Shown piece after piece: positions 8,000-22,228 of a DNA stretch of 64,000 bases. The DNA is from Alkalibacillus aidingensis (GTDB taxonomy: Bacteria; Bacillota; Bacilli; Bacillales; Alkalibacillaceae), in the NCBI RefSeq assembly GCF_014595945.1, contig NZ_JABXWU010000002.1, positions 62,001 through 126,000 of the forward strand, written 5' to 3'. Under the pieces are notes generated by a model that made no database searches, was not told where the DNA came from, and worked only from the letters and a program-made list of their open reading frames with translations. Made by a program: the position numbers and the translations under genes. Position 1 is the first letter of the stretch. Each line of letters starts with the position of its first letter.

Positions 8000-8108
8000 C
8001 TCTTATCTGTCAAAGCATCACGCTTTGCTGGAATTAGCACCTGTTAGACAATTGTCTAATGGTTGCTGGGTTTCATCGGGCCATTCCCTCCACCTCTCTG
8101 GATAAGAG
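8000..8108 (-). promoter_or_regulatory. SAM-I (S-box) riboswitch, proximal copy
   Basis: Classical S-box aptamer on the minus strand: P1 arms CTCTTATC / GATAAGAG, conserved core AGAGGTGGAGGGA, GATGAAACCCAGCAACC and GGTGCTAATTCCAGCA. It is followed by an intrinsic terminator (7942-7984). It switches metNPQ off when S-adenosylmethionine is abundant. Confidence 0.96.
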
Positions 8109-8138
8109 ATTCATATATTTTACTCTATTATCAGTTTT

Positions 8139-8160
8139 ATACGTTACTAGATTAACGTAT
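8139..8160. repeat. Perfect inverted repeat between the two riboswitches
   Basis: ATACGTTA, 6 bp, TAACGTAT: a perfect 8-bp inverted repeat between the distal terminator and the proximal aptamer. It could be a linker hairpin in the RNA or a protein site at an internal promoter; no strong promoter is evident. Confidence 0.5.
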
Positions 8161-8164
8161 TAGT

Positions 8165-8204
8165 GAAAAATAAAAAACTCTCCTTGCAAGAACAAGAAAG
8201 AGTT
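8165..8204 (-). terminator. Terminator of distal SAM riboswitch
   Basis: Minus-strand hairpin with outer arms AACTCT / AGAGTT and inner CTTG / CAAG, followed by TTTTTTATTTTT. It belongs to the upstream S-box copy. Confidence 0.88.
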
Positions 8205-8214
8205 AACCGACTCA

Positions 8215-8322
8215 TTCTTATCTTGCAATGAAAATCATTGCAGGAATTAGCACCTATTATGATTAAATCATAACGGTTGCCGGGTTTCATTGGGCCATTC
8301 CCTCCACCTCTCTGGATAAGAA
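8215..8322 (-). promoter_or_regulatory. SAM-I (S-box) riboswitch, distal copy
   Basis: Second complete S-box aptamer on the minus strand, with P1 arms TTCTTATC / GATAAGAA and the same core (AGAGGTGGAGGGA, AATGAAACCCGGCAACC, GGTGCTAATTCCTGCA). It has its own terminator (8165-8204). The leader RNA therefore carries two independent SAM sensors in series before metN. Confidence 0.95.
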
Positions 8323-18011: not shown

Positions 18012-18058
18012 AAAAAAATTACTCTAAACTTCAAAAATTGCTCGAAGTTTAGAGTAAT
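18012..18058 (-). terminator. Terminator of the PCYCGC-copZ unit
   Basis: Perfect 15-bp hairpin ATTACTCTAAACTTC / GAAGTTTAGAGTAAT followed on the minus strand by TTTTTTTATTTC, 8 bp after the copZ stop. Confidence 0.92.
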
Positions 18059-18065
18059 TAATCTA

Positions 18066-18272
18066 TTAGCTCTTCACATCATAACCTTGTTCTTCAATGG
18101 CTTCTTTCATTTCTTCTTTTCCTATTGTATCTTCATCAAACGTAACGTCGACTTTCCCACTATCTAAATGAACCTCAACAGAAGCAACTCCATCTAATTC
18201 TTTTAAAGCACCCTGAACAGCTTGTTTACAATGTCCACAAGACATTCCTTGTACATTTAATGTTAATTCCAT
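18066..18272 (-). CDS. copZ: CopZ-like copper chaperone
   Basis: 68-residue heavy-metal-associated domain, MELTLNVQGMSCGHCKQAV, with the metal-binding MxCxxC at Cys12 and Cys15. It is a cytosolic Cu(I) chaperone by family. No CopA ATPase or CsoR is nearby; instead it follows the PCYCGC lipoprotein gene with 67 bp between and no terminator, so the two are probably co-transcribed. Confidence 0.9.
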   Translation of the reverse strand: MELTLNVQGMSCGHCKQAVQGALKELDGVASVEVHLDSGKVDVTFDEDTIGKEEMKEAIEEQGYDVKS

Positions 18273-18339: not shown

Positions 18340-18825
18340 TTATTCTGGCTGTGGTGTGGGAGTCGGCTCCAAGCCAGTGTCAGCATACTCTTCATCGATT
18401 GCATCGCGAATTTCTTTGATCTCGTAACCATTATCTTGCATCTGTTTAGCCTCACGGGCTATATCGACACAAATTGCTCAGCCAAAGCCCATCTGATCAA
18501 TGTAGGCAACTTGATCATCGATTTCAGTGACAAAGCAGTGTTGATTATGCTCATGACCTACTTCACCACACCCACAATAACAAGGCATATTTTGAAGTAA
18601 ATCACCATCATGAATCGCAATTTCATATGCTTCTTTTACTTCCTCCATATCCTCCTCTGAGAACACATCAGCAAGTTCTGCTGACCAGGCTTGTTCTTCA
18701 ACATGATAAGTTAAAGCATCTAAGGAGGAATCATAACGAATTCCTTCTTCATTTTCTTCAATTTGATTTGAACAAGCTTCTAGAGTAATTAATAACAAAA
18801 GCAGTACTAGCATGTATTTTTTCAC
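18340..18825 (-). CDS. PCYCGC-motif lipoprotein, probable selenoprotein (in-frame UGA read as Sec)
   Basis: The frame from GTG 18825 runs 115 codons to a TGA (18478-18480), then stays open 45 more codons to TAA (18340-18342), giving 161 residues, about the length of the PCYCGC family. Signal peptide with lipobox LEAC (Cys18); PCYCGCG at 81-87; further Cys at 97. The UGA codon (116) starts UAIC, where I recall relatives having CGVC or CGIC; the sequence after it (VDIAREAKQ, KEIRDAID, PTPTPQPE tail) is family-like. A SECIS-like hairpin follows immediately. The alternative is a nonsense-mutated pseudogene, but all downstream codons are intact. The function of the family is unknown; a redox or metal role on the outer membrane face is inference. 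Confidence 0.8.
18436..18480 (-). promoter_or_regulatory. Bacterial SECIS-like hairpin after the UGA codon
   Basis: Directly after the UGA: 5 nt, lower stem UUGUGUC / GAUGCAA (7 bp with wobbles), 4x4 internal loop (GAUA / AACA), upper stem UAGCC / GGCUA (5 bp) and apical loop CGUGA. The loop starts 22 nt after the UGA and has G as its second base. This fits published bacterial SECIS rules (short upper stem, G in the first two loop bases, 16-37 nt spacing). Confidence 0.7.
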
Positions 18826-18919: not shown

Positions 18920-19306
18920 CTACTTCGCCTGATCAATAGCTGCAACCATTGTCTTCTCAATGTCCAAAGCGAAATTTCTCACATCTTCTGAATTAATATT
19001 TTCCATTAAGGCAGTTGGTCGTGGCATACCTATTTTCGTTTGTCCTTCACTTTCATAGACAACCACTTTACATGGTAAAAAGTAACTAACCTTCTCCTCC
19101 ATTTTTAATATTTCACTAGCTGCCTTAGGATTACAGACTTCTAAGATTCTAAAAGACTGATTAAAATTATCAAAACCTTTACTATGCAAAGTCTCTTTAA
19201 CATCAAAGTCCCATAATACTCCGAACTTAACCTCTTGTAATGAACTTGTGATAGACTCTACTGCGTCATCAACCGTTTTATTCGTTGTCACTGTATAATC
19301 AAACAT
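18920..19306 (-). CDS. DUF302 family protein
   Basis: 128 residues matching the DUF302 fold: TVDDAVESITSSLQEVKFGVLW, central CNPKAASEIL, then LPCKVVVYE and a C-terminal helix. Cytosolic, no signal peptide. The function is unknown, though DUF302 genes often accompany thiol or metal genes. The start follows TTTTGGAGGGATTGT. It is divergent from the zinc operon. Confidence 0.82.
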   Translation of the reverse strand: MFDYTVTTNKTVDDAVESITSSLQEVKFGVLWDFDVKETLHSKGFDNFNQSFRILEVCNPKAASEILKMEEKVSYFLPCKVVVYESEGQTKIGMPRPTALMENINSEDVRNFALDIEKTMVAAIDQAK

Positions 19307-19379: not shown

Positions 19380-19426
19380 AAATCGTAATCATTACTGTTT
19401 ACAAATCGTAATCATTACGATATAAT
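19380..19426 (+). promoter_or_regulatory. Sigma-A promoter overlapped by tandem Zur boxes (znu operon)
   Basis: Two sites fit the Bacillus Zur consensus AAATCGTAATNATTACGATTT: 19380-19400 (right arm degraded) and 19403-19423 (nearly perfect), 23 bp apart. Between and across them lies TTTACA (19398-19403), 17 bp, TATAAT (19421-19426). Zinc-loaded Zur would cover both promoter elements. Confidence 0.93.
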
Positions 19427-19465: not shown

Positions 19466-20539
19466 TTGAAATTAATAAAATGGTGCTTTTTTATGATTTT
19501 ATTACTAACGTTAATAGCTTGTGGCAATCAAAATAATCCTGAAGACCCGGAACCTCAAGCAAACGATTCTGAAGATATTGATGAACAAACAGAAGAAAAT
19601 GATGAACAAACTGAAGATATAGGTAAAATCATTACTTCCCTTTATCCGATTGAATATATTGTTTCAGAAATTGTCGGTGACTTTGCAGAGGTTGAAACAG
19701 TTATGCCTCCTGGAGCAGATGCCCATGTGTATGAACCGTCTACACGTCAAATGATTGAGTTGGCCGATAGTGATGCTTTTTTCTATATTGGTGAAACGAT
19801 GGAAGTTTTCTCTGATACAATGGCAAACTCATTAGATAGTGAAGGTGTTCATACATTCGAGCTAGCTAAATTTGAGGAACAATTATTCATGGATTATGGT
19901 GATGAACAAGTAGACGATCATCACGAAGATGAGCACGGGGATGAGGATGACCATCATCACGAAGACGAACATGGTCATGAAGAAGAGGAAAATGATGACC
20001 ATGATCATGAACATGGCGATTATGACCCACACTTTTGGCTAGACCCATCACGCATGATTAGTGCTGGTGACATTCTATTAGATGAATTAATAACTTTATA
20101 TCCTAACCATGAAGAGGTATTTCGGGATAATTACGAACAGTTCACGGACAACATGGAGGAGTTAGATACATCTTTCCAAGAAGCTTTGGTGAATGAAGAG
20201 GTAAATATTTTAGTAGCACATGCAGCTTTCAGTTACTGGGAAGAGGCTTATGGAATTAATCAAATAAGCATCAGAGGGGTATCTTCATCCCAAGAACCAT
20301 CCCAGAGAGAATTACAACAATTATTTGAAACGTTAGAGGATTTAAACATCGATCACGTGATTTTAGAATCCAATCGTGATGATCGACTTGCTGAAACCGT
20401 TGCAGATGAATTTAATCTTGATGTTTATCATCTTCACAACTTAGAAACGAGAACAGAAGAAAATGTTGAACATGGTCTTGATTACATGGATATTATGCGA
20501 GAAAATCTTGAAGTACTAATACAAACAATGGAAGATTAA
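19466..20539 (+). CDS. znuA: ZnuA/AdcA, zinc-binding lipoprotein of the zinc ABC importer
   Basis: 357-residue metal-binding lipoprotein (cluster A-I). The lipobox Cys is residue 19 (TLIAC), followed by an acidic linker. The zinc ligand His in ADAHVYEPS and a His/Asp/Glu-rich loop (about 150-190, ending HGDYDPHFWLDP) mark zinc rather than manganese specificity. Later ligands are in VAHAAFSYW and the C-terminal NLETR region. First gene of znuA-znuC-znuB-zur under the Zur boxes. Confidence 0.95.
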   Translation: MKLIKWCFFMILLLTLIACGNQNNPEDPEPQANDSEDIDEQTEENDEQTEDIGKIITSLYPIEYIVSEIVGDFAEVETVMPPGADAHVYEPSTRQMIELADSDAFFYIGETMEVFSDTMANSLDSEGVHTFELAKFEEQLFMDYGDEQVDDHHEDEHGDEDDHHHEDEHGHEEEENDDHDHEHGDYDPHFWLDPSRMISAGDILLDELITLYPNHEEVFRDNYEQFTDNMEELDTSFQEALVNEEVNILVAHAAFSYWEEAYGINQISIRGVSSSQEPSQRELQQLFETLEDLNIDHVILESNRDDRLAETVADEFNLDVYHLHNLETRTEENVEHGLDYMDIMRENLEVLIQTMED

Positions 20540-20606: not shown

Positions 20607-21365
20607 ATGATGTCCAACACTTTAATCAACGTTAATGATGTGACACACCGTTATGATCGACATACGGTTTTAGAAAATATCTCTTTCTCGGTTGAAGAAG
20701 GAGCTTTTGTTGGTCTGGTTGGCCCTAACGGTTCAGGTAAAACGACGATTATTAAACTTATGTTAGGTCTAGAAAAACTACAAAAAGGATCAATTGAAAC
20801 TTTCGGAAAACCTATTCATAAATTCACCAACAAAGGACATATAAGCTTTGTTTCTCAAAAAGCTAACTCATTTAATCGTGGCTTTCCAGCAACGGCTAAG
20901 GAAGTTGTAGGTATGGGATTAACTTCAAAGTTAAGTCTCCTTCGTCCAACGACGAAAAAATTGGAGCATCATATCTATGAAGCACTTGATCAAGTAAATA
21001 TGAGTGAGTATGCCAACACTAATATTGGGGATTTATCTGGTGGACAACAACAACGAATTTTTATTGCTAGATCAATTGTAAACAAACCAAGACTGTTAAT
21101 CTTAGATGAGCCAACTGTTGGTGTTGATACTGAGAATGTAGAACAATTCTACCAATTACTATCTAAACTAAATGATGAACTAGGCATTACCTTAATCTTA
21201 GTATCACACGATATCGGTTCGATCACCACCCATGTGACTGATTTACTTTGTTTAAATAAATCGATCCATTATCATGGTAACCCTAGTGATTTTGAAAATA
21301 TGACTGATGAACAGCGCTCGAAGTTGTACGGTCATGATATGCATACGATCACCCATAATCACTAA
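20607..21365 (+). CDS. znuC: ZnuC/AdcC, zinc ABC transporter ATPase
   Basis: 252-residue ATPase: Walker A GPNGSGKTT, signature LSGGQQQR, Walker B LLILDEPTVGVD. It powers zinc import with ZnuB. ATG at 20607 or 20610, both behind AGGAAGGGGG. The C-terminal tail holds His residues (YGHDMHTITHNH). It lies 15 bp before znuB. Confidence 0.93.
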   Translation: MMSNTLINVNDVTHRYDRHTVLENISFSVEEGAFVGLVGPNGSGKTTIIKLMLGLEKLQKGSIETFGKPIHKFTNKGHISFVSQKANSFNRGFPATAKEVVGMGLTSKLSLLRPTTKKLEHHIYEALDQVNMSEYANTNIGDLSGGQQQRIFIARSIVNKPRLLILDEPTVGVDTENVEQFYQLLSKLNDELGITLILVSHDIGSITTHVTDLLCLNKSIHYHGNPSDFENMTDEQRSKLYGHDMHTITHNH

Positions 21366-21379
21366 GAAAGGAGGGGCAA

Positions 21380-22228
21380 ATGTTGTTAGATGCTTTATTA
21401 AGCTTTGAACTATTGAGAAATACATTTTATACTGGATTATTAGTCGGATTTATTGCCCCTTTACTTGGGACATTTATCGTAGTAAGACGTCTATCATTGA
21501 TTGCTGATGGTCTATCTCACGTCACCTTAGCTGGAATTGCTTTCGGTTTATTTATGCAAAAGAAATACACACTACTGTTTTTGACACCTTTTCATACAGG
21601 CATCATCTTTTCAATCATTGGAGCCATCGTGATCGAAAACTTAAGAAGTGTATATAAAGCGTTTCAGGAAATCGCTATTCCGATCACCTTATCACTAGGG
21701 GTCGGTTTGAGCGTTGTGTTTATCGCACTTGCAGATGGGATTAATACAGATATATTTGCATATTTGTTCGGTTCTGTTGCAGCTGTGAGTCGCTCTGACC
21801 TATATTTAATTCTCGTGACAACAGGACTCGTCTTGTTATTAATTATTTTCCTTTACAAAGAATTATTTGCACTATCGTTTGATGAGGAATTTGCAACCGT
21901 TTCGGGTATGCGCGCCAAAGTCATACACTATCTATTTATTATTATGACAGCATTAGTTATTTCCGCTTCAATTAGAATAGTTGGAGTTTTACTAGTTTCT
22001 GCTTTAATGACATTACCGGTTGCAACAGCTATTCGAGTGGCAAAAAGCTTTAAACAAACGATTATCTATAGTATTATTTATGGAGAAGTCGCAGTTATTG
22101 TCGGATTAGTGTCAGGTTATTATTTAGAAATACCGCCTGGTGGTACCATTGTCATCACCTCTGCTATTTTACTAGGTTTAACTCTGTTGGTGAAAAAGTG
22201 GTACCTGGCTTATATTTACAAAGGGTGA
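21380..22228 (+). CDS. znuB: ZnuB/AdcB, zinc ABC transporter permease
   Basis: 282-residue ABC-3 family membrane permease with about eight hydrophobic helices; GTFIVVRRLSLIADGLSHVTLAGIA is the family signature near the N-terminus. The start follows AAAGGAGGGG. Third gene of the zinc operon, 6 bp before zur. Confidence 0.93.
   Translation: MLLDALLSFELLRNTFYTGLLVGFIAPLLGTFIVVRRLSLIADGLSHVTLAGIAFGLFMQKKYTLLFLTPFHTGIIFSIIGAIVIENLRSVYKAFQEIAIPITLSLGVGLSVVFIALADGINTDIFAYLFGSVAAVSRSDLYLILVTTGLVLLLIIFLYKELFALSFDEEFATVSGMRAKVIHYLFIIMTALVISASIRIVGVLLVSALMTLPVATAIRVAKSFKQTIIYSIIYGEVAVIVGLVSGYYLEIPPGGTIVITSAILLGLTLLVKKWYLAYIYKG

Follow-up and report, generated by a model that had tools for sequence, protein, structure and literature searches.

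We report that a lipoprotein-like member of the PCYCGC family (PF13798) in Alkalibacillus aidingensis is very probably a selenoprotein, in which the in-frame UGA at codon 116 is read as selenocysteine (Sec); we put the probability of this reading at roughly 0.93. The gene lies in the window, by which we mean the whole stretch of 64,000 nucleotides that was analysed. That Sec takes the place of a cysteine in a CxxC-type pair, as the initial annotation of this DNA had proposed, is strongly supported by the frame, the Sec machinery of the genome, the conserved UGA, a conserved and covarying stem-loop behind it, and Cys at this position in homologues. A Sec form of PF13798 has already been predicted, so what is new here is the Bacillota branch: a new branch, not a new family.

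Results

The PCYCGC gene and the Sec machinery of its genome

The frame opens with GTG at 18825 and holds a single in-frame TGA, codon 116 (18480-18478), after which 45 more codons lead to a TAA. This is the frame that the initial annotation had outlined, with the TGA at 18478-18480, 45 intact codons to the TAA and a length of 161. The PF13798 profile matches the read-through translation with 117.3 bits (cut-off 25) and covers residues 8-160; since the match runs through to residue 160, the part behind the TGA is family sequence, as had been supposed from its appearance. With a score above the gathering cut-off and the PCYCGC motif present, the protein belongs to PF13798. Under the standard code the same start yields an ORF of 115 residues, and the UxxC end of the protein would therefore be missed. 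Residues 116 and 119 are the sole UxxC-spaced pair in the protein. The N-terminus is hydrophobic and continues into LEAC, whose Cys18 is almost invariant in alignments A2 (33 rows) and A3; with the Pfam model LPAM_1, 15 of 81 members give a match at an E of 1 or below, the best at 0.0026.

Table 1. Features of the PCYCGC locus and its surroundings in the window.
Feature	Position	Strand	Basis or remark
PCYCGC (PF13798) gene, lipoprotein-like, predicted selenoprotein	18825..18340	minus	161 codons, UGA = codon 116, TAA 18340-18342
UGA codon 116, proposed Sec, opens UAIC (UxxC)	18478..18480	minus	sequence; recurrence in relatives
Cys119, second residue of the UxxC pair	18469..18471	minus	invariant, 81 alignment rows
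PCYCGC motif, residues 81-86	18568..18585	minus	invariant, 81 alignment rows
Lipobox-like LEAC; Cys18 = predicted lipid-attachment cysteine	18772..18783	minus	sequence
Full hairpin: 7-bp lower stem, 4x4 internal loop, 5-bp upper stem, CGUGA loop	18436..18472	minus	RNAfold
Conserved SECIS core UAGCC-CGUGA-GGCUA	18447..18461	minus	loop begins 21 nt past UGA; relatives, covariation
CopZ-like HMA metal-binding protein	18066..18272	minus	downstream; PF00403 67.5 bits
Terminator-like stem and T run, 3' of copZ	18017..18059	minus	pattern scan alone; 2 in region vs 0.6 expected
DUF302 protein	18920..19306	minus	upstream; PF03625 72.9 bits
Two Zur-box-like palindromes	19383..19420	plus	between divergent znuA and DUF302 genes
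ZnuA/AdcA-like substrate-binding protein, divergent	19466-20539	plus	NCBIfam zinc and manganese SBP models, below cut-offs
Metal ABC transporter ATPase, divergent	20607-21365	plus	named by sequence and place
Metal ABC transporter permease, divergent	21380-22228	plus	named by sequence and place
Two SAM riboswitches in tandem	8000-8322	minus

The genome (2.84 Mb in 25 contigs) encodes the complete set of components that the initial annotation had suggested looking for. A tRNA-Sec scores 63.6 bits with the Rfam model (gathering 47) and is called tRNA-SeC with anticodon tca by ARAGORN, and profile matches were obtained for selA (552.6 bits), selB (342.8) and selD (384.7); all four genes are clustered within ~7 kb (C1:391498-397982). 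The selD gene carries an in-frame TGA of its own, in SSKAGUGCKL. Among the five protein families searched, selD and the PCYCGC gene are the only ones with an inner TGA in this genome. A Sec-type formate dehydrogenase was considered as a further user of the machinery and rejected, both PF00384 matches in the genome being without inner TGA. UGA also serves as an ordinary stop: the 37 stop-to-stop frames of at least 250 codons in the window, taken as frames and not as confirmed genes, end in TAA (28), TAG (5) or TGA (4).

A conserved stem-loop behind the UGA

Starting 5 nt past the UGA, RNAfold predicts a hairpin of -12.9 kcal/mol (z -2.54), which is only moderately better than shuffled sequence, 4 of 200 shuffles being as good. 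The fold, the offset of 5 nt and the CGUGA loop are those given in the initial annotation, and to this extent its hairpin was reproduced; its lower stem did not prove to be conserved, with 58.7% of cells paired in relatives against 100% in the upper stem. On this ground we ruled out the 7-bp lower stem as a conserved part of the SECIS.

The upper stem separates the two forms of the gene. Each of the 30 Sec segments allows all five of its pairs and none of the 51 Cys segments does, the latter allowing 2 to 4, and the loop reads CGUGA in 26 of the 30, so that upper stem and loop are nearly fixed. Over 28 distinct rows 140 of 140 upper-stem cells are paired, while controls in which the partner was slid by 1-3 columns gave 18.6-52.1%. 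Two pairs are doubly changed, one from A-U to C-G or U-A (5 rows) and the other from C-G to G-C (1 row, L061). In a comparison with 500 shuffles, the covariation score, the share of paired cells and the tally of doubly changed cells were never reached, the variety of pair types was reached once and the tally of doubly changed pairs 14 times; furthermore, RNAalifold, unprompted, returned the same five pairs. In the main covarying pair the two bases are synonymous third positions, one in an Ile and one in an Ala codon, and the changes are silent; the double change of the second pair in L061 also makes Glu into Asp. The Sec segments have C, T and G in 97% at offsets 23, 26 and 29, respectively, whereas among 49 Cys segments the most frequent base accounts for 31, 31 and 73%, a contrast that is not purely silent, as the amino acids differ there as well.

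According to the bSECIS model given in a 2026 catalogue (PMC13188914), such elements have a loop of 5 nt with G second and then U, and -7.5 kcal/mol over 50 nt. The window hairpin agrees with this description in its CGUGA loop, 5 bp, distance of 21 nt from the UGA and -12.9 kcal/mol. Set against the model, 5 of 30 Sec segments are weaker than -7.5 kcal/mol, and for 4 of 30 the most stable 50-nt structure does not contain the stem.

Recurrence of the TGA and its link to the machinery

Among 22 genomes from the same family, PF13798 matches turned up in 9, that of the window included, and each of the nine matches has exactly one TGA, at the same codon. Public genome contigs were scanned as well, and the best 80 of 314 related stretches were taken; their UGA116 column holds TGA in 29 and TGC or TGT in 51, which gives no prevalence because these 80 are the ones nearest to a Sec query. 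The Cys relatives have motifs such as CGVC and CLVC in this column, just as the initial annotation had given Cys for relatives where UAIC starts. Over all 89 loci, 8 of which duplicate another locus over 93 nt, the TGA is found in 38. These come from numerous assemblies and genera: Alkalibacillus, Salirhabdus, Melghiribacillus, Salinibacillus, Halalkalibacter, Neobacillus, Cytobacillus, Schinkia, Calidifontibacillus, Ammoniphilus, Fictibacillus, Mesobacillus, Kroppenstedtia and others. At the level of the order, at least 163 of 299 genomes match PF13798; the Sec forms sit among the low-scoring rows, and as these are incomplete among the matches listed, no Sec prevalence follows from this search.

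A sample of 398 genomes from the phylum gave matches to the NCBIfam model NF041379 in 9, of which 5 have an inner TGA. One of these five (L129), a short match with TAG and TAA besides TGA, was not counted as a Sec form. Two loci from Bacillota outside the window's class have the forms MGAGUGIC (L123) and MGFGUGVC (L125); their stem-loops, AUAGCG-CGUGA-CGCUAU and AUCGCG-CGUGA-CGCGAU, are the same stem-loop built from other base pairs. Matches in plasmid records numbered 17, all below 60% identity; 16 are annotated PCYCGC proteins and one is without annotation.

The link to the machinery was tested in the hosts of 49 of the 80 loci (L033-L080, L082), with L081 and L083-L112, the latter all Cys forms, outside the test. 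SelA and tRNA-Sec occur together in the same 29 of the 49 host genomes, namely in 28 of 29 TGA hosts and in a single one of the 20 Cys hosts. Fisher's test gives p 2e-11, with the proviso that species of common descent are not independent observations; as the tRNA-Sec search scored the best 68 candidates per genome, absence is less firm for the tRNA than for selA. The Cys host with both genes is Lentibacillus populi (L041). Conversely, in Bacillus sp. B1-b2 (L042), a TGA form, we found no selA and no tRNA-Sec match among the best 68 of 203 tRNA candidates scored with stricter filters. Over 12 kb there is 97% identity between the B1-b2 locus and the one in Bacillus sp. V59.32b (L050), whose genome has both; a mixed or incomplete assembly, recent transfer and real loss are possible causes. 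Some hosts have extra copies: two selA genes above cut-off and two tRNA-Sec genes in Ammoniphilus sp. YIM 78166 (L043), three tRNA-Sec genes in the genome of L044 (a MAG) and two in the host of L053.

These data bear directly on the other ways in which the codon could be understood. Were the TGA a true stop, the product would be a 115-residue protein, working or decaying, that keeps PCYCGC and loses the CxxC helix pair. The standard code does yield such an ORF, and UGA terminates other frames of the window; yet the 45 codons behind the TGA are conserved over many genera, as a decayed tail would not be, a covarying stem-loop follows, and the TGA tracks the Sec machinery, all of which makes a true stop very unlikely. 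Decoding of UGA116 as some other amino acid (Trp, Cys or another), through a suppressor or leaky termination, is compatible with the sequence taken by itself, but we judge it highly improbable in view of the tRNA-Sec (tca), of selA, selB and selD, of the SECIS-type stem-loop, of the way in which selA and tRNA-Sec track the TGA, and of the Cys in homologues. The idea that sequencing or assembly has turned a TGC or TGT into TGA, the two codons being one base away and present in Cys relatives, has a negligible chance and is already refuted by the recurrence of the same TGA over many genera and assemblies, the five stem pairs moreover forming in TGA forms only. Altogether, none of the three outcomes that the initial annotation had named as fatal to its proposal was encountered: the machinery is present, the TGA recurs in other genomes (nine of nine family matches, 29 of the best 80 stretches) and the homologues have Cys.

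Known relatives

A selenoprotein of this family has been listed before. Table 1 of the 2026 catalogue contains a CYCXC family protein (hypothetical protein OS_HP4) with PF13798 and UxxC, credited there to Zhang and Gladyshev 2007, the gutless-worm symbiont study (PMC13188914), and the entry in a 2022 review gives OS_HP4 with UxxC and names no domain (PMC9312934). NF041379, too, bears the name 'CYCXC family (seleno)protein'. The remark of the initial annotation that it was not aware of a described Sec form is overtaken by this listing, and its proposal of a new selenoprotein holds only in part. Like OS_HP4, the window protein belongs to PF13798 and has one Sec in UxxC, and the Sec of OS_HP4 presumably stands in the same column as U116.

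The difference from OS_HP4 lies in the branch, as judged by model score. Although its UAIC agrees with the UxxC motif, the window protein reaches 66.7 bits with NF041379, for which the cut-off is 90; we therefore rejected it as a member of NF041379 and place it in a separate Bacillota branch. All 33 rows of alignment A2 (31 TGA, 2 Cys) match the model, and the best of them also stays below the cut-off, because its E of 5.2e-22 lies between those of matches with 76.2 and 80.2 bits. Ten further proteins with NF041379 scores are all below 90 bits (eight Cys relatives, 63.4-80.2), and no protein in the 398 phylum genomes exceeds the cut-off. A literature search whose scope left aside subscription papers, preprints and supplements gave no description of a Bacillota Sec branch of PF13798. 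The branch adds a gene group spread over many genera, with a conserved SECIS, to the predicted selenoproteome of Bacillaceae and their neighbours.

The Cys-containing PCYCGC (lipo)proteins of Bacillales share family, architecture and cysteine set with the window protein. One example is AOT13_14730 of Parageobacillus thermoglucosidasius, described as a PCYCGC lipoprotein beside an Fe3+ binding protein (PMC13068155). These proteins differ in having Cys for Sec, mostly as DHGTRCxVC against MGFGUxxC in the Sec forms; they lie on the opposite side of a tree branch, never allow the five stem pairs (0 of 51) and have fewer of the listed metal genes nearby. The (2Fe-2S) CopZ-family selenoproteins resemble the window protein in that Sec is predicted in small proteins named for metal handling; going by their description in the catalogue, on which both likeness and difference are based, they are set apart by domain cd10141 and other Sec motifs (PMC13188914).

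We also considered kinship with CcmH/NrfF (PF03918), which have a helical RCxxC and a similar helix pair, and rejected it. The weak Foldseek matches 2hl7 (rank 1, E 2.5) and 2kw0 (rank 5, E 4.6) point to this family, the best PDB match being a CcmH domain. With hhalign we obtained a probability of 34% for E. coli CcmH and NrfF and 23% with six more sequences (8 in total), the alignment covering the helix pair only and leaving the CxxC motifs unaligned, and found no profile similarity spanning the RCxxC site. Among 25 of the 34 Pfam families matched by the members, CcmH does not occur; PF03918 itself is matched in 6 of the 31 host genomes searched. More generally, Foldseek gave no fold match among PDB structures at E 0.001 or better, and when PDB sequences were searched with a profile, all E values were 0.31 or higher.

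Genomic neighbourhood and possible role

With UGA116 read as Sec, this residue would stand in a predicted surface protein whose gene has zinc and copper genes close by. The initial annotation had pointed out copZ as the neighbour, and the HMA domain encoded downstream was indeed recovered at 67.5 bits. As far as the sequence tells, DUF302, PCYCGC and copZ may be transcribed as a single unit. Two palindromes in the divergent intergenic region resemble TCGTAATNATTACGA, which we take to be the core of the Bacillus Zur box: 19406-19420 exactly and 19383-19397 with 2 mismatches. For Bacillus Zur, a 9-1-9 box has been described (PMC6336718). Sites of this kind, with up to 3 mismatches and at most 1.2 kb upstream, occur at 10 of 31 Sec loci, at both Cys loci of the Sec clade and at 6 of 49 Cys loci. 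Zur-box-like sites are also seen upstream in L033-L036, L039, L040, L030, L038 and L041.

Metal genes were counted within 3 kb from a list of CopZ/HMA, heavy-metal P-type ATPase, CopC, CopD, YtkA, CsoR, ZnuA, ZnuB and CDF. They are present at 21 of 31 Sec loci versus 2 of 49 Cys loci, and at both Cys members of the Sec clade; when ArsR and ABC ATPase are added, the counts become 25 of 31 and 11 of 49. By the strict list, 10 of the 31 Sec loci have none nearby. The contrast between Sec and Cys loci is biased, because the reference proteins were taken from Sec neighbourhoods, some loci are near-copies and some flanks are short. Moreover, metal neighbours are not special to Sec forms, since the published Cys member adjoins the gene of an Fe3+ binding protein, a metal gene outside the list used for the counts.

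The AlphaFold model is confident and mostly helical (pLDDT 91.4) and has U116 directly before helix 117-131; CxxC redox sites are commonly found at the start of a helix. The protein might be made and act as follows. The ribosome would decode UGA116 as Sec by way of tRNA-Sec, SelA, SelB and SelD, with the SECIS AGCC-CGUGA-GGCU, its loop starting 21 nt past the UGA, directing insertion. The protein would be exported and lipid-anchored outside the membrane, where Sec116 and Cys119 could form a selenol-thiol pair at the helix start; together with PCYCGC and Cys97, this pair might handle or redox-protect zinc or copper ions, or the thiols of metal proteins, at the cell surface. For Alkalibacillus and close relatives, expression probably goes along with zinc uptake under Zur.

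For the role of the selenoprotein, we lean slightly towards metal handling. The main rival to zinc or copper handling accepts the Sec and assigns the protein a general extracytoplasmic task, in thiol-disulfide exchange or peroxide repair, with an electron supply shared with ResA/CcdA. The position of UxxC at a helix start speaks for it, and 5 of 31 Sec loci have ResA-like thioredoxin genes in the vicinity and 2 of 31 CcdA/DsbD-type genes; nevertheless, genes for metal transport and sensing are the commoner neighbours (21 of 31), and the Alkalibacillus lineage has Zur-like sites upstream. We take such a general thiol-redox role seriously without favouring it. Going back to metal handling, one could tentatively picture, as a conjecture that we would not expect to hold in every part, a widespread Bacillota branch of surface selenoproteins, probably called as 115-residue truncations, whose selenol-thiol pair handles extracellular zinc or copper and which in some hosts may be the reason why the whole Sec machinery is retained.

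Evolution of the Sec and Cys forms

The distribution of Sec over a tree of 81 proteins requires 2 changes of the label, against a mean of 25 after shuffling. One falls on the branch that splits 48 Cys rows from the rest and the other on an Oceanobacillus/Lentibacillus pair. The midpoint root of this tree is provisional: Kroppenstedtia, itself on a long branch, lies next to it, and the program cautions that long branches meet there. For the Oceanobacillus/Lentibacillus pair, the sequences suggest that the change was probably from Sec to Cys, and in such a change the stem-loop goes along with the Sec codon. The two loci, from Oceanobacillus halotolerans (L038) and Lentibacillus populi (L041), carry TGT at this codon, group within the Sec clade and can form only 3 of the 5 stem pairs. 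In a record titled Arthrobacter beigongshangensis (L108), the PCYCGC gene groups with Caryophanaceae/Bacillaceae, and this genome is possibly mislabelled, to judge by that gene.
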